Below, one piece after another: positions 3,764-47,663 of a DNA stretch of 64,000 nt. Position 1 is the stretch's first letter. The number at the start of each line of letters is the position of its first letter. The stretch covers positions 79,834 through 143,833 of the forward strand of contig JAHDWP010000005.1 of assembly GCA_023382715.1 (NCBI GenBank), given 5' to 3'. The notes beneath the pieces are model-generated. The model saw only the letters and a list, made by a program, of their open reading frames with translations, had not been told where the DNA came from and did not search any database. The position numbers and the translations under genes were made by a program. This stretch comes from Anaerolineae bacterium (GTDB taxonomy: Bacteria; Chloroflexota; Anaerolineae; Aggregatilineales; Aggregatilineaceae).

Positions 3764-4873
3764 ATGGCTGAGCAAATGGGACTTCTGATCGTGGGGTGCG
3801 GGTATTGGGGGGTGAACTACGTTCGCAACTTCACCGAGATGCCCGAAACGCGCGTGGTGGCTCTGTGCGACCAGCGCGTCGAGCGTCTGAACGAGCTGCG
3901 GCGGCGCTTCCCGGAGCCTGTGCTGACGACCGACCTGGAGGAGGCGCTGCGCCTCCCCGGCGTGGACGCGGTGGTGGTTTGCACCAATGCCACTGCGCAC
4001 TATGATGTGGCGCGTCACTGCCTGGAGGCCGGCAAGCACGTGCTGATTGAGAAGCCGATGGCGACCTCGACCGAGCGCGCGCAGCGGCTGGTGGACCTGG
4101 CTGCGGCCCGCCGCCTCACGCTGATGGTGGGGCACATCTTCCTCTACAACGGCGCTGTCCGCAAGATTAAATCGTACATTGACGAGGGGGCGCTGGGCGA
4201 GTTGTATTACCTGTACGCGCGCCGGACAAATCTTGGCCCCGTCCGCTTCGATGTGAACGCCCTGTGGGACCTGGCTCCGCACGATATATCCATCTTCAAC
4301 TATATGCTCGGCGCGCGCCCTGAATGGGTCAGCGCAGTGGGCACGCAGGTGCTGCACAACTGCCGCGAAGACGTGGGCTTCATCGTGCTGGGCTATCCCA
4401 ACAAGACGCTTGGCCATGTGCATGTGAGCTGGGCGGACCCCCTCAAAGTGCGCGAAGTGGTGGTGGTTGGCAGCGACAAGCGCATCGTCTTCGACGATCT
4501 CAACCCCCTGGAGCGGGTGCGCATCTTTGACAAAGGCATCGCGGCGTCGCCGGTCGGCCCAGAGCCGACCACCTTCGAGGAGTATCACTTCTCCATCCGC
4601 GATGGCGAGATCAGCAGCCCGAACATTGACTTTGGCGAGCCGCTCAAGACGCAGTGTCTGCACTTTGTGGAGTGCGTGAGCCAGGGATGCCCACCGCTCA
4701 GCGACGGCCACGAAGGTCTGAATGTCGTGCGGGTGATGGAAGCGGTAGGACGCTCGATTGCGCAGCGTGGCGCGCCGGTCGAGCTTGAGTGGGAAGAGGC
4801 CGAGGACAAGCCGGCCCGAGCCGTCATGGAGAGCAGTTATGAGCGCCGAACCAGTACGGGTGCCGTTCATTGA
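3764..4873 (+). CDS. Gfo/Idh/MocA-family nucleotide-sugar dehydrogenase
   Basis: 369 aa. An NAD(P)-dependent oxidoreductase likely to oxidise a nucleotide sugar for the next enzyme, an aminotransferase. The N-terminal Rossmann motif is GCGYWGVNYVRNF (residues 11-23). The EKPMATS motif carries the family's catalytic Lys. The C-terminal alpha/beta domain contains DLAPHDISIFNY with the usual His/Asp pair. The arrangement resembles WlbA-type UDP-sugar 3-dehydrogenases paired with DegT aminotransferases, but the substrate is inferred. It overlaps the next gene by 35 bp, indicating translational coupling. Confidence 0.9.
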   Translation: MAEQMGLLIVGCGYWGVNYVRNFTEMPETRVVALCDQRVERLNELRRRFPEPVLTTDLEEALRLPGVDAVVVCTNATAHYDVARHCLEAGKHVLIEKPMATSTERAQRLVDLAAARRLTLMVGHIFLYNGAVRKIKSYIDEGALGELYYLYARRTNLGPVRFDVNALWDLAPHDISIFNYMLGARPEWVSAVGTQVLHNCREDVGFIVLGYPNKTLGHVHVSWADPLKVREVVVVGSDKRIVFDDLNPLERVRIFDKGIAASPVGPEPTTFEEYHFSIRDGEISSPNIDFGEPLKTQCLHFVECVSQGCPPLSDGHEGLNVVRVMEAVGRSIAQRGAPVELEWEEAEDKPARAVMESSYERRTSTGAVH

Positions 4874-39926: not shown

Positions 39927-40820
39927 GTGACGGCGACATCCCTTCCCTCACAGCAACAGCCGTTGAGCCTGGGCGCGCGCGTGCACGCCTACTGGCAGCT
40001 TATCAAGAGCCTGCAAACAGGGCTGCTGCTGGTCACGGCAGTGGCCGGCTTTATGAGCGTGTGCTGCCCGATCAAAGGGTGGCAGACGCTGATAGGCCTG
40101 GTGCTGACCATGTTCTGCGCAATCAGCGGTAGTACAGTGCTCAACATGGCGTACGACCGCGACATTGACGCCAAGATGGCGCGCACGGCCCGCCGCCCGC
40201 TGCCGTCCGGCAGGATCAGCGCAGCAGAAGCGCTGTGGGTTGGGCTGGCTCTGTGCGCGGTGGGGGTAGGCGGCGCGCTGGCACTCGATCCGCTCTATGG
40301 CCTGGTTGTGTTCGCGGGCGCGTTCTTCGACGTGGTCATCTACACGGTCTGGCTCAAACGGCGCACGCCCTGGTCTATCCTGTGGGGCGGCATCTCCGGC
40401 GGCATGCCCGTGCTGGCCGGGCGCACGTTGGGCATGGGCCAGGTGGAGACGGTGGGCCTGCTGCTGGCGTTGGCCGTGTTGCTGTGGATTCCCACGCACA
40501 TCATGACCTTTAGCATCAAGTACGCGGCGGACTACAAGCGGGCGGGTGTGCCGGTCTTCGCCAACACACACGGCGAGCGGATCACGCGCCTGATCATCAG
40601 CGTGTCTACCGCCCTGGCAGTGATCGTCATGACCCTGGCTGTGTGGCAGATCGAGCTGCACGTCAAGTGTGTGTACGCGAATATCAGCCTGGGCGCGGCG
40701 CTGATGTTCTTCACGCTCATCAGCCTGGCGTTCCCATCCCCCAAGCTGAACTTCGGCCTGTTCAAGTTCGCATCGCTGTACATGCTCGCTTCGATGATGC
40801 TGATCATGTTAGGCGCTTAG
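39927..40820 (+). CDS. ctaB: Protoheme IX farnesyltransferase (heme O synthase)
   Basis: 297 aa. UbiA-superfamily membrane prenyltransferase with nine hydrophobic segments. First Asp-rich motif NMAYDRDIDAKMARTARRPL (with the COX10-type RT-x2-RPL), then YTVWLKRRTPWSI, GGISGGMPVLAG, and a second motif region WIPTHIMTFSIKY. It converts heme B to heme O, so the operon's oxidase-like protein may use heme O or A. GTG start at 39927 with a weak RBS. A hairpin at 40842-40887 follows. Confidence 0.88.
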   Translation: MTATSLPSQQQPLSLGARVHAYWQLIKSLQTGLLLVTAVAGFMSVCCPIKGWQTLIGLVLTMFCAISGSTVLNMAYDRDIDAKMARTARRPLPSGRISAAEALWVGLALCAVGVGGALALDPLYGLVVFAGAFFDVVIYTVWLKRRTPWSILWGGISGGMPVLAGRTLGMGQVETVGLLLALAVLLWIPTHIMTFSIKYAADYKRAGVPVFANTHGERITRLIISVSTALAVIVMTLAVWQIELHVKCVYANISLGAALMFFTLISLAFPSPKLNFGLFKFASLYMLASMMLIMLGA

Positions 40821-41955: not shown

Positions 41956-42888
41956 CTATTTGAACTTCCCAGGGAGCACCTCAACGTGGCAGCCACTGCG
42001 ATTGCAACTCACCTCGCTCGTCAGCGCGTGCGAGAGATACGGGAATAGCTCCTGACCTTCGCCACCCGCGAAAGTCACCCACAGCCCGTCGCGCGCCTCG
42101 TCGGCGCCCACAGCCATCTCGCTGGAGTCATGGCAGGCGACGCAGTGGACAATCGCGTGATCGGTGTCGTGCCCAGGCGTCTCCTTAAGCGTCTCATGGC
42201 AGCCGGAGGCGCCGCAGGACGCTGTCAGGGCGTGCGAGTCGTGGCAATCAGTGCATTCCAGGCCAGCGTCGGCGTGCGCCCCGCTCACCACAACATCGGC
42301 GTGCCCCTCGGTTTCGGCCCCGCTGTGGCAGTTCTGGCAGAGCTGGCTGTTCGAAGAGACCTTCGCATACTGCTCGATGGCGGGCGCTTCAAGCCAGCGC
42401 ACATCGGCCTGGACAATGCCGTTGCGGTCTACCTGGTGGCAGACCTTGCAATCCACCGAGTGAGCGTTGGCCGGCTCGATCAGGGGCGGCGGCGGCTTGA
42501 CCTCAAATTTGCAGACCGTGCAGCTGGCCGGCATATCATCCATCGAAGGGATGTAGTTAAGCGGGTCGTGGCACTGGTTGCAGGTGCTGTTGGTGCCATC
42601 GGCGGCCACCACATAGGTATCTGCGTGCTGCCCGGCCAGCCACCTGTCGAGGGGCGCGTCGGGCAATGCCTCGCCCGTGCTCCCGGTCGTGCCGCCCTGG
42701 CCCACCATCTGCGAGGCTGCGCCGCCCGTATTCTTGACGATGCTGACCGGCTCGGTGTTGCCCGCTTCGATCTGGTAGGCCGCGACGATCGCCACGGCGG
42801 CGGCGATCAGCAGCACGGCGATGACTGTGTCGCGCACCCTGCTCAATGGAGAGGGTTGTGTATGTTTGGTATTGCTGGGCTTCATCAT
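41956..42888 (-). CDS. Octaheme cytochrome c with CxxCK heme motif, membrane-anchored
   Basis: 310 aa. One N-terminal TM segment (VIAVLLIAAAVAIVAA) places the rest outside the membrane. Eight heme motifs: CNQCH (103-107), CTVCK (123-127), CKVCH (147-151), CQNCH (184-188), CTDCH (212-216), CGASGCH (225-231, CX4CH), CVACH (249-253), CNRSGCH (295-301, CX4CH). Lys in a CxxCK motif marks the catalytic heme of NrfA/ONR-type nitrite reductases. It is paralogous to the upstream 43013-43972 gene but has two CX4CH motifs. Start chosen at the double ATG 42888/42885; a longer frame begins at 42948. Reductase activity is inferred. Confidence 0.85.
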   Translation of the reverse strand: MMKPSNTKHTQPSPLSRVRDTVIAVLLIAAAVAIVAAYQIEAGNTEPVSIVKNTGGAASQMVGQGGTTGSTGEALPDAPLDRWLAGQHADTYVVAADGTNSTCNQCHDPLNYIPSMDDMPASCTVCKFEVKPPPPLIEPANAHSVDCKVCHQVDRNGIVQADVRWLEAPAIEQYAKVSSNSQLCQNCHSGAETEGHADVVVSGAHADAGLECTDCHDSHALTASCGASGCHETLKETPGHDTDHAIVHCVACHDSSEMAVGADEARDGLWVTFAGGEGQELFPYLSHALTSEVSCNRSGCHVEVLPGKFK

Positions 42889-43012
42889 GTCCCCGCTATG
42901 TGAACAGTCTGGTTGAGAGGGGTGTTCTCGCTTTCTCACCAGACCCATTGGTTAGGGAGTGGCTCGCGGTGCGCGGAGTTGATGCGGGCGCACCGCGAGC
43001 CAGGCTATTTTA

Positions 43013-43972
43013 TTACGGGGCCGTGCCGTCTGCGTTCAGGACAGCCAGTCCCCATTCGTTGTCGGCGTAGTGGCAGCGGTCGCAAGTGACTTGCCACTGC
43101 ACGCTGTGCGACACGATAGCCGTGATGGTTGACTCACCGCCGCGGCTGACGCTCTTCTCCAGCGTCGTCCAGACGCCGCCCATCGCTTCGTCGGGGTGCG
43201 GGCCTACCGCAGCGCCAGAGGCGTCATGGCAGGCGAGGCACTGCACCTTCTCGAGGTGGATGGCGTTCATGCCCTTGATGTGCGTGTCCAGCTCGGCCAC
43301 GTTGCTGTGGCAGTCAACGCAGGCCATCGGCTGCTGGGTGTGCGGATTGTGGCAGTCGGAGCACTGGTCGGGGCGGTGTCCGCCGATGGTCGCGGCCCAG
43401 TTGCGGTGGGCGCTGCCACCCAGGATGATCTCGTGATCCACGCCACGCCCACCGGTCTCGGAGACGCCCGTCGAGTTGGTGTGGCATTTGCCGCACAGCT
43501 CGTTGGTGGTCGCCACTGGCTCGTATTCCCCGGCGATCGGGTTGAGCCACGCATTCGACGAGGCATTGATCAGGTCACCTTCGACCACGTGGCAGGTCGA
43601 GCAGGCAATGCCCACCCAGTCTTCGCGGCTAACGAAGTCCATCGTGGGAGCGATGCGCAGCTCGGGATCGAAGGGGAACTTGCACGTCACGCAGTTGGGC
43701 GGCGCAGACGGGCGCGCGGCGGGGTCCCAGTTCTGCGGTGAGTGACAGCGGGAGCAATAGGTGTTGGGGCCTTTGCCCTCATCATAGGTGTTGCCGTGCG
43801 GGCTGCCTTCCCACGCCTGAATGACGTCGGGATAGTCAGCGAGCGGCTTCATCTCGTCGGCGTCCTGAGCCTGGGCCGAGCGGATCGAGCCGACCGCCAA
43901 CGCTATCGCCAACACGACGCAGGCACAGGCGAGCAACCTGAGCCAACTGGAAAATCCTCTCAACGTTTGCAT
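43013..43972 (-). CDS. Octaheme cytochrome c with CxxCK heme motif, periplasmic
   Basis: 319 aa. Signal peptide (LLACACVVLAIALAVGSIRSAQA). Eight motifs: CSRCH (73-77), CVTCK (94-98), CSTCH (124-128), CGKCH (160-164), CSDCH (204-208), CVDCH (218-222), CLACH (245-249), CDRCH (297-301). The order matches the downstream paralogue: C-x2-CH-x-P-x-N, then CxxCKF at position 2. In NrfA the CxxCK heme is the first of five, and in ONR it is the fourth of eight, so this placement is different. RBS GAGGAG lies 6 bases before ATG 43972. First gene of the minus-strand operon, with a Crp/Fnr-type box upstream. Confidence 0.87.
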   Translation of the reverse strand: MQTLRGFSSWLRLLACACVVLAIALAVGSIRSAQAQDADEMKPLADYPDVIQAWEGSPHGNTYDEGKGPNTYCSRCHSPQNWDPAARPSAPPNCVTCKFPFDPELRIAPTMDFVSREDWVGIACSTCHVVEGDLINASSNAWLNPIAGEYEPVATTNELCGKCHTNSTGVSETGGRGVDHEIILGGSAHRNWAATIGGHRPDQCSDCHNPHTQQPMACVDCHSNVAELDTHIKGMNAIHLEKVQCLACHDASGAAVGPHPDEAMGGVWTTLEKSVSRGGESTITAIVSHSVQWQVTCDRCHYADNEWGLAVLNADGTAP

Positions 43973-44150
43973 GTGCATCTCCTCAAAGTCCTTGTGTGTT
44001 CTCCGCGCAAAATCAAGCAAACACAGCGTCGCCTGAACCAGTGAGAACGATGCCCGGCAGTGGGCCGGGAGAGCAGGGTGAGATGGCGGCCAGGAGAACG
44101 CTCAACGCAGCGGGCGAACACATTACTGATAGTTCGCCCCCCTTTTGTGT

Positions 44151-44390: not shown

Positions 44391-44439
44391 GATGCTCGCA
44401 ACATTCGTGGCCGCTCATTATGACTCATGGAGGATACCA

Positions 44440-45075
44440 GTGGCCGAACTGCTCTGCACCCTCATTCGTCGCGCCGGCTGGCGATGGTCTGCCGCTCGCC
44501 AGGCCGCACTCGCCCGCTCCCTGGCGCTGGCACTGCTGCTCAGTTTGCTGGGAGCGCTGCTGGCCGCGTGTGGATCGGACAAGAAGGAGAGCGCGAAGAC
44601 GGGGCTGGCGGTGGGCGACGCGGCCCCCGCCTTCGCGCTGCCCGCGTCCGACGGCAGCAACGTCTCCCTGGACGCATACCGGGGCCAGCCGGTGCTGCTC
44701 TTCTTCCACATGGCCGATGGCTGACCGCCCTGCAACCAACAGATCGTTGATCTGGAAAAGGACCCCGCCTTTCAGGCGCTGAACGTGGCGATTCTCAGCA
44801 TCGCCTTCGATACGGCAGCACAACAGGCAGCCGTCAAGCAGGAATATGGCATCGCCGCGCCGATGCTGGTGGACGCGGACAAACGGGTTTCCACGCAGTA
44901 CGATGTCTTGCAGTGGGCCGCTGCCAGCGGCGAGCCGGGCCATACGTTTGTGCTGGTGGACGGCGCAGGGAAGATCGCCTGGATTCGCGATTACGGCGCG
45001 CCGGAGAATGGCGGCACGATGTATGTGCCGGTGAACGAATTGACCCAGCAGATCGCAGCGGCACTGCCATCCTGA
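44440..45075 (+). CDS. Thioredoxin-fold/peroxiredoxin-like lipoprotein, probable selenoprotein (in-frame UGA = Sec95)
   Basis: 211 aa if UGA 44722-44724 is read as selenocysteine. GTG start with GGAGG six bases upstream. Lipoprotein signal ending LLAAC. Redoxin domain: GDAAPAFALPASDGSNVSL, then VLLFFHMADG-UGA-PPCNQQIVDL, then VAILSIAFD, GIAAPMLVDADKRVS, GHTFVLVDGAGKIAWIRDYG. Cys-containing relatives carry C-x-x-C at this point, so UGA replaces the first Cys (U95-P-P-C98) and the reading frame continues undisturbed to a normal C-terminus. A SECIS-like hairpin lies at 44740-44754. A nonsense mutation in a CPPC gene is the alternative. Likely a periplasm-facing thiol reductase or peroxidase. Confidence 0.75.
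44740..44754 (+). promoter_or_regulatory. Candidate bacterial SECIS element
   Basis: CAGATC-GTT-GATCTG: perfect 6-bp stem with a loop beginning with G. The loop G (44746) lies 22 nt after the UGA, within the 16-37 nt window and with the loop-G rule reported for bacterial SECIS hairpins. Confidence 0.6.
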
Positions 45076-45350: not shown

Positions 45351-47663
45351 CTAGGGCAGGCCGTTGAGCGTATCCACGACGCGGAACAGATCGCCGAGAG
45401 CGTAGAAATCAACGGCGATGAAATTGGGCTTGTGGCCGCGCTCCTTGGTGCAGGCAAGGGCGCGCTCCAGCAGAAAATCGTACTGGTTGACGGAAGCAGC
45501 GTCCACCCGGCCAGGGGCGCGCCGCGCGATCCAATGGTTGAGCAGGAACAACGGCTTGTCGGTGCCGCCCCGGTTCGGCGCGCAGGTGAAGTCTTCCGGG
45601 CGGCGGTAGTTGTAGGGCGTTTCCTCGGTGTAGTCCCACAGGTGCAGATACCAGTCGGGCGGCGGCCCGCCGCGCTCGGCGAAGACGACCAGCCGCGTAT
45701 TGGCCTCGATCATCTCGCGCAACGTGGGCCATTCGCCGTCGGGGTTGGGGGTGTAAACGTAGCGAATCAACCCGCTTTCTTCAAAGACGGCAGCGGTGTC
45801 CTGTGGGCTGACTTCGTCCTGCAGGATCAGCACGACCACTTCGTTCCGATTGCGGTCGAGGAAGGTGCGAATGCTGGTGAAGGTGGTTTCGAGCGGAGTT
45901 GCGCCCAGCGCGCACAGGTTGTGGCAGACGAAAAGGTTGTTGGAATCGCGGGTCTGCGGATCGGCGGCGTTGACGATTCGCTCGATGAGCGACCGGCTGG
46001 CGCTGGGGAAGGTGGCCAGGTAGCGGGCGATATCGTCCTGCGAGTCGCCATAGTGCGTGTCGAGCAGAAAAGCGCGCACGCCCGCCTTGAGCTGAATGGA
46101 CAGGCCGCCGTCGTGGTGCGGCCAGACCCAGCCGAGGTTGGAGGCTGACATGGCGTTGTGCGCCGCCGGGAACACGACTTCGTTGAAGCGGCGACCACAC
46201 AGCGCCTCGTGCCCATTGCAGACCAGCGCGCTGGAGCGCGCGGTGCGCTGCGGCGTGAGCGCCCAGTCCAGCAGGACCGGCAGCCCGACCAGCGTGATGA
46301 TCGCCAGGGCCAGGGCCAGGCGCGGGCGCGCGGCGAGCGGTCGCAGCAGACGGGTCAGCCAGCGCACGACCTTCGGCGAGGCCCACGCGCCCAGCAGGAT
46401 CGCGCCCAGCAGCAGAGCCACCGCCGCCCGCTGGCGGACCGAGTCGCCCACGCCGCTCTGCAGCGAGGTGAGCACGTCGGTCAGCATCGCGCGCAGCGAG
46501 CGGGGCAGCCCAGCGCCGTTGAGGGCGGAATCCGTGAATCGCTCGAAAGGCAGGCTCACGCGCGCCTCGATCAGCGCCCAGGCCCCGACGGCACTGGCTC
46601 CGGCCAGCACCAGCATCAGCCCCAGCAGGCCGAACGCCCGGCGCGTGCGCGTGCCTTGCAGCGCGGCCAGCCCGCTCAACGACAGCACCAGCACCAGGAT
46701 GATCGCGGGCTTCAGGTCGTTACGAAAGAAGAGAGCCAGCTCGCGCGTGTCGTTCATCTCGTGGATGATGTTGTTGGTCGTCTTGTCGGCGAGCCGGGCG
46801 AAGGCATCTATACCGCCGATGGTGCCCGTCTTCATCTCGCTTTGCAGGTTGCGCGCGGCTTCTTCGACCTGCACTGCCAGCAGCTCGCCCGACGCGATGA
46901 CGATGGCGCTGGCCAGGTCGTTATCGGCCAGGGCTACCTCCACCTGCAGGCGCGTTGCTTCCGTCACCCGCACGCCTGCCGGCGCCAGCAGAATCCGGGC
47001 GATCTCATGTTTCTGCGCTTCGGACAGGCCCCGGATGGAAAGGTTGGTGATGTCAAAAGGCAGCACCCCCAGGCGGCCTTCGGACAGGGCGCGCACGTAG
47101 TCTTCAATCTGGCTGTAGAGCGTCTCCGGTGTCAGCGCGGACACGCTCAACTCGCCCTCGCCGATCAAGCGATTCTGCCTGGCCCGCGCGATCAGCTCCG
47201 TCTGGATGGTTTGTGCCGCCGCGATAATCTTCTGCTGAAGCTCCGGGTCATTGATCGCCCTGGACAGGTGGATGTTGGAGCGCAGGCGTTCGCGCTTGCC
47301 GGAGAGGTAGGCGGTCAGCTCGATGAAAACTCGGTTGGTGGCGCTGCGCAGCACGTCCGGGGGCAGCACCAGGCGCAAAGCCGAGACCGCGTGGCTGTAG
47401 GTTTCCTGAGAATAATATCCTTCGATGCGCAGATCGCCGAGCAGGCGCACGGTGACGTCGCGCAACGCCGGGTCGGCCAGCAGATCGGTGTAGACGCGGT
47501 CGTAAATGCGGTTGCGTTCCAGGGCGCGGGTGTAAAAGCGCGCGTTGAGCAGGTCTTCGGTCACCACCTGGACGCTCAGATAGGTGAGGAAAGAGGCGAT
47601 GAAGGCGACCATCAGGAGAATGGTCAGCAGGCGTTCGAGCCAGGGGTACGATGTTCGCAGCAT
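45351..47663 (-). CDS. Membrane protein with C-terminal PI-PLC-like phosphodiesterase domain
   Basis: 770 aa. TM segment at 11-33, a large extracytoplasmic helical region (40-315), then TM segments at about 319-337, 343-365, 412-428 and 450-468. The C-terminal domain from about 480 resembles PLC-like phosphodiesterases: FNEVVFPAAHNAMS with H502, LSIQLKAGVRAFLLDTHYGD, LFVCHNLCALG with a second His, VVVLILQDE. Orientation suggests the PLC domain is outside the cytoplasm. Substrate could be a lipid or teichoic-like phosphodiester. It stands alone. Confidence 0.8.
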   Translation of the reverse strand: MLRTSYPWLERLLTILLMVAFIASFLTYLSVQVVTEDLLNARFYTRALERNRIYDRVYTDLLADPALRDVTVRLLGDLRIEGYYSQETYSHAVSALRLVLPPDVLRSATNRVFIELTAYLSGKRERLRSNIHLSRAINDPELQQKIIAAAQTIQTELIARARQNRLIGEGELSVSALTPETLYSQIEDYVRALSEGRLGVLPFDITNLSIRGLSEAQKHEIARILLAPAGVRVTEATRLQVEVALADNDLASAIVIASGELLAVQVEEAARNLQSEMKTGTIGGIDAFARLADKTTNNIIHEMNDTRELALFFRNDLKPAIILVLVLSLSGLAALQGTRTRRAFGLLGLMLVLAGASAVGAWALIEARVSLPFERFTDSALNGAGLPRSLRAMLTDVLTSLQSGVGDSVRQRAAVALLLGAILLGAWASPKVVRWLTRLLRPLAARPRLALALAIITLVGLPVLLDWALTPQRTARSSALVCNGHEALCGRRFNEVVFPAAHNAMSASNLGWVWPHHDGGLSIQLKAGVRAFLLDTHYGDSQDDIARYLATFPSASRSLIERIVNAADPQTRDSNNLFVCHNLCALGATPLETTFTSIRTFLDRNRNEVVVLILQDEVSPQDTAAVFEESGLIRYVYTPNPDGEWPTLREMIEANTRLVVFAERGGPPPDWYLHLWDYTEETPYNYRRPEDFTCAPNRGGTDKPLFLLNHWIARRAPGRVDAASVNQYDFLLERALACTKERGHKPNFIAVDFYALGDLFRVVDTLNGLP

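Follow-up and report, generated by a model that had tools for sequence, protein, structure and literature searches.

A probable selenoprotein gene with a covarying SECIS hairpin in an Anaerolineae bacterium

The gene located at 44440..45075 on the forward strand of the window (the whole stretch analysed, 64,000 nt, which corresponds to positions 79,834-143,833 of the forward strand of contig JAHDWP010000005.1 in the Anaerolineae bacterium assembly GCA_023382715.1) is very probably a true selenoprotein gene, encoding a putatively exported and lipid-anchored protein of the Prx/ResA fold that likely functions as a selenol-based thiol-disulfide reductase. As judged from the sequences of the gene and its relatives, the internal UGA at 44722-44724 is almost certainly read as selenocysteine, and computation supports the assignment through the decoding machinery, the conservation of the UGA, the covariation within the hairpin and the fold. 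Standard annotation would cut this gene in two and, since gene callers stop at UGA, its whole subfamily probably suffers the same split or is recorded as pseudogenes.

The reading frame and its internal UGA

The frame begins with GTG at 44440, where a Shine-Dalgarno sequence GGAGG (44429..44433, forward strand) can be read 6 nt upstream, and extends to a TGA stop at 45073-45075. Its sole interruption is the TGA at 44722..44724 (codon 95), such that translation with TGA as Sec yields a Prx-like/thioredoxin-fold lipoprotein of 211 aa. The frame therefore reads as the initial annotation had described it, namely as a GTG-started lipoprotein with one in-frame UGA in a U-x-x-C motif. Sec95 is the first residue of U-P-P-C (read as GUPPC), with Cys98 (44731..44733) as the second residue of the redox motif. 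A lipobox identified by eye (LLAAC, residues 40-44) places the predicted lipid anchor on Cys44 (44569..44571), and a lipobox-like LxxC, as in bacterial lipoproteins, is also seen by eye in most of the relatives whose N-terminus is complete. Residues 58-181 match Pfam AhpC-TSA (PF00578) with an E-value of 2.8e-27, and thus combine PF00578 with UxxC. The earlier label "redoxin" is better restricted to the published Prx-like UxxC type, the protein being no classical peroxiredoxin.

A search of 150 relatives within the order recovered 16 orthologues, 56-81% identical to the query and spread over 15 other genomes, with two copies in one of them. Each order relative has exactly one in-frame TGA, which in all of those read is situated at the same codon within the context G-U-(P/Q)-P-C. 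selA is present in 14 of the 15 orthologue-bearing genomes, the exception (G064) being 69% complete. A wider scan of 84,980 species genomes yielded 63 loci, belonging to Chloroflexota (Anaerolineae and others), Actinomycetota (Acidimicrobiia and others), Desulfuromonadales and a single Tectomicrobia record, with TGA at this codon in every one of the about 60 database loci where the codon was present and readable. Cys98 is invariant except in three Chloroflexota members (L112, L120 and L130) that have TGA at both motif positions (UxxU; first TGA at 0-based positions 4225, 2746 and 4141, respectively), where formation of a diselenide could be possible. The nearest homologues without TGA (L036, with 43% identity, and L133-L141) carry C-x-x-C here, as had been anticipated for Cys homologues at residue 95, and the others carry Sec. 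The in-frame UGA is thus conserved in the orthologues, with Cys or Sec in the homologues, and such an exchange at residue 95 would be the pattern expected of a catalytic selenocysteine.

Selenocysteine machinery and the downstream hairpin

The predicted selA, selB, selC and selD were all located in the genome (3.88 Mb, 98.6% complete). The selA (542 bits) and selB (347 bits) genes adjoin on contig 18 (C18) and are followed on the same strand by the tRNA-Sec gene selC (68.5 bits; anticodon UCA, with which ARAGORN agrees), and selD (370 bits) is found separately on contig 4 (C4). SelD (L012) has its own in-frame TGA within SSCAG-U-ASK, followed by a 6-bp hairpin, as does the formate dehydrogenase alpha chain FdhA (L163; contig 6, 868 bits) within HCARL-U-HSS. 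Besides the present gene, no fewer than two well-known selenoproteins of the organism thus have a UGA that is read as Sec. We propose that SelB and tRNA-Sec(UCA) would likewise decode the UGA at 44722-44724 as selenocysteine, and that the in-frame hairpin just downstream would direct the insertion.

The hairpin CAGATC-GTT-GATCTG, which had been proposed as a SECIS with a loop G 22 nt past the UGA, was found at 44740..44754 on the forward strand, with the G at 44746. Taken singly, such a hairpin carries little weight: by the same rule, one of equal quality follows about 3.5% of all TGA trinucleotides in the window. The folding energy is also ordinary (z -0.86), with shuffled sequences folding about as well; this test being not significant, the selenoprotein claim is not based on it. 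The Rfam scan of the gene (44440-45075) returned no match reaching an E-value of 5.

The hairpin is, however, conserved among relatives with compensating synonymous changes. Within 15 distinct sequences of the order, changes on both sides are observed at three of the seven stem pairs, and shifting the stem partner by 1-3 bases abolishes the pairing. Among 65 distinct Sec genes, a few of them from a second Sec group (FYRAFW-U-xxC), the facing Gln and Leu codons covary, with CAG/CTG in 48, CAA/TTG in 15 and only two discordant, and a second codon pair within the stem covaries as well (ATC/GAT in 51, GTC/GAC in 6). Neither CAG to CAA nor CTG to TTG alters the amino acid, and protein constraint therefore leaves the covariation unexplained. 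If every gene keeps its own peptide and codon usage, a perfect 6-bp stem is expected in 4.4 of the 62 genes, compared to 56 observed; the Cys homologues form 1 to 5 stem pairs, mostly 3. The loop begins with G in all Sec genes (GTN), but this G belongs to the codon of a conserved Val and is therefore no independent evidence. On the basis of these comparative sequence tests, rather than the weak single-sequence ones, the putative SECIS is maintained by selection, and it is one of the clearer examples of a bacterial SECIS evolving by compensatory synonymous changes.

These observations bear on three other ways of reading the UGA. One in-frame TGA in one genome would look identical if TGC or TGG had turned into TGA by mutation or sequencing error, leaving a gene that is dead or really intact. 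However, the same TGA recurs in a congeneric genome that was assembled independently (G004, 81% identical), so that a sequencing error is excluded and the concern that the codon might be TGC or TGT is answered. It is also found in dozens of genera from three phyla, and the protein is 56-81% conserved on either side of it, making a pseudogene or error extremely improbable. Were the UGA a real stop, the product would be a short protein with residue 94 as its last, and a separate gene would start from GTG 44785, where a GTG-started ORF of 96 aa (44785-45075) is indeed present; this is hard to reconcile with the protein-level conservation of the segment that separates the UGA from 44785 (PPCNQQIVDLEKDPAFQALNV) and with a fold that requires both halves, and we give it almost no credence. 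Other kinds of UGA-decoding tRNA are well established, such that the UGA could in principle be reassigned to Trp, or to Cys via a tRNA with a UCA anticodon other than tRNA-Sec. Yet this gene itself ends on UGA as its ordinary stop codon, the SelA/B/C/D set is complete, and a covarying hairpin would be expected only under SelB-dependent Sec insertion, so that the probability of reassignment is negligible.

Fold, predicted activity and genomic neighbourhood

In the AlphaFold (AF2) model, obtained with an alignment of 13 (pLDDT 88.6, pTM 0.72), residue 95 immediately precedes helix 96-107, which is the usual place of the active site in the thioredoxin fold. The top Foldseek matches are the peroxiredoxins AhpE, Bcp and AhpC2 as well as ResA. 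When the sequence is aligned to peroxiredoxins (PxxxTxxC), Sec95 lines up with the Thr, Cys98 with the peroxidatic Cys and Met91 with the Pro; the catalytic Pro/Thr/peroxidatic-Cys set is therefore absent from these alignments, with Met, Sec and Cys at the respective places. When aligned to thioredoxin-family CxxC proteins, Sec95 and Cys98 fall on both Cys. Sequence and fold are intermediate between the peroxiredoxins and the ResA/TlpA thioredoxins, similar to the published "Prx-like, UxxC" selenoproteins.

Published selenoproteins are split by motif into Sec peroxiredoxins with TxxU and Prx-like thiol:disulfide oxidoreductases with UxxC (PMC1088965, PMC13188914), from which, together with the alignment of Sec95 and Cys98, we infer a reductase of disulfides. 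The protein would be exported and anchored by a lipid at the outer face of the membrane, where it would adopt a peroxiredoxin/ResA-type thioredoxin fold with the U-P-P-C active site opening the first active-site helix, and would act as a selenol-based thiol-disulfide oxidoreductase (reductase) via a Sec95-Cys98 selenenylsulfide cycle. From sequence and model, the product is most likely a selenol reductase that is anchored at the cell surface and acts on disulfides or on oxidised thiols of a related kind. Lipidation, reductase activity and substrate are predictions, the reductase role resting on the motif and on a fold that is common to peroxidases.

Within the window, the gene is isolated, with a divergent multihaem cytochrome gene (43013-44020, reverse strand) on one side and a convergent, unrelated gene (45351-47663, reverse strand) on the other. 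A UbiA-family prenyltransferase (39927-40820) and two multihaem cytochrome-like genes (41956-44020) are situated nearby and possibly constitute a respiratory cluster. Elsewhere, heavy-metal P-type ATPase genes are found inside the 4-kb flanks of 12 of the about 61 Sec loci, which are related such that the counts are not independent. The ATPase is directly upstream of the Sec gene and on the same strand in L071, L073, L079, L085, L091 and L125, and CsoR-type repressors (PF02583) are present in L073, L081, L085, L107, L116 and L125. The respective ATPase/CsoR-type repressor genes by the Sec gene span 1755-3947 in L071, 540-3968 in L073, 545-3633 in L085, 934-3971 in L125 and 3425-3853 in L081. 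ATPase/CsoR neighbours likewise accompany the Cys homologue L067/L036. Two heavy-metal ATPases exceed the cut-off in the 3.9 Mb of the window's own genome, both away from the Sec gene.

The main alternative with respect to activity is a selenoprotein that functions as a peroxidase of the peroxiredoxin type rather than as a disulfide reductase. AhpC-TSA being the best Pfam match and the AhpE and Bcp-type peroxiredoxins the best fold matches would be consistent with such a function, which we nevertheless consider unlikely given that Sec95, Cys98 and Met91 occupy the Thr, peroxidatic Cys and Pro places of PxxxTxxC and that published Sec peroxiredoxins have TxxU. A surface role in copper or soft-metal stress, involving either the repair of metal-oxidised thiols or metal binding and transfer of the Sco type, is possible, if doubtful. 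From the two ATPases in this genome, we estimate that fewer than 1% of loci of this size picked at random would contain one, and CsoR-type repressors accompany several of the Sec loci, but the ATPase is not adjacent in the window's genome, the link is not seen in most relatives, and the loci share ancestry. We retain the disulfide reductase as the preferred reading of the activity, and the ATPase/CsoR association suggests a lead to a metal-stress (copper/soft-metal) role, not a proof of one.

The broader scenario, in which surface lipoproteins of Anaerolineae, Acidimicrobiia and Desulfuromonadales form a distinct, almost exclusively Sec-containing family that has spread horizontally and works with CopA-type ATPases and CsoR in copper/soft-metal homeostasis, is speculative and, in our assessment, quite unlikely. 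If true, it would imply a metal-stress role for extracytoplasmic selenocysteine, and the link to copper genes offers a testable hypothesis for why selenium is kept outside the cytoplasm. In a full-text literature search on selenoproteins and copper ATPases, no paper reported such a link in its title or the opening of its abstract.

Family placement and relation to known redox proteins

In the phylogenetic tree, 61 Sec members and ten Cys homologues split from the ResA-like and Bcp-like proteins and the second Sec group with 100/98 support. This tree nests the Cys group within the Sec group, which would suggest a change from Sec to Cys; with the long branches left out, a single Sec clade is not rejected (p-AU 0.668), and thus we claim no direction of exchange. 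These proteins probably form a new subfamily, in which all members have Sec save for the Cys sister group, some have UxxU, and copper ATPase/CsoR neighbours are found at approximately one fifth of the loci. An Anaerolineae selenoprotein subfamily with about 60 aligned examples is thereby added.

Members from Actinomycetota (L080, L082, L093, L096, L100, L102 and L128) and Desulfuromonadales (L110, L111 and L122) are placed among those of Chloroflexota in the tree, with L093 beside L031/L032 at 100/100 support. This mixing suggests horizontal transfer of selenoprotein genes between phyla or, for MAGs, misbinned assemblies. The second Prx-like group with an in-frame TGA (FYRAFW-U-xxC) is found in other Chloroflexota (L144, L156, L159, L142, L145 and L146; G160:C11:506452-509617), where several genomes have two or three tandem copies.

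The window protein and divergent members alike score below the cut-off of every NCBIfam model, the Sec-specific models among them. PrxU (TxxU) shares the fold and the Pfam family, but has its Sec at the place of the peroxidatic Cys rather than at the Thr position as observed here, and its model NF040737 scores 29 against a cut-off of 270. The SelL-related redox proteins are likewise Prx-like, with Sec/Cys-x-x-Sec/Cys, and their model NF040769 yields 40 bits against a curated cut-off of 120. ResA/TlpA proteins are also extracytoplasmic, membrane-anchored and of the same fold with a CPPC-type motif, whereas here Sec replaces Cys and no W precedes the motif; the ResA model NF002854 yields 48 bits against a curated cut-off of 170.

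The published Prx-like thiol:disulfide oxidoreductase selenoproteins contain PF00578 and UxxC, in some cases UxxU (PMC13188914 Table 1; PMC1794560, PMC2398784, PMC1088965). With this type ("Prx-like 1" in the GOS survey), the subfamily described here shares PF00578, Sec as the first residue of UxxC, occasional UxxU and a bacterial in-frame hairpin. In contrast to the published proteins, the subfamily consists of lipoproteins with GUPPC-xQQIVDL and has no non-Sec member inside the sampled clade. It includes the Desulfuromonadales members L110 (Pelovirga terrestris), L111 and L122, and is probably a new subfamily beside the one with the Geobacter Prx-like example WP_010940744.1.
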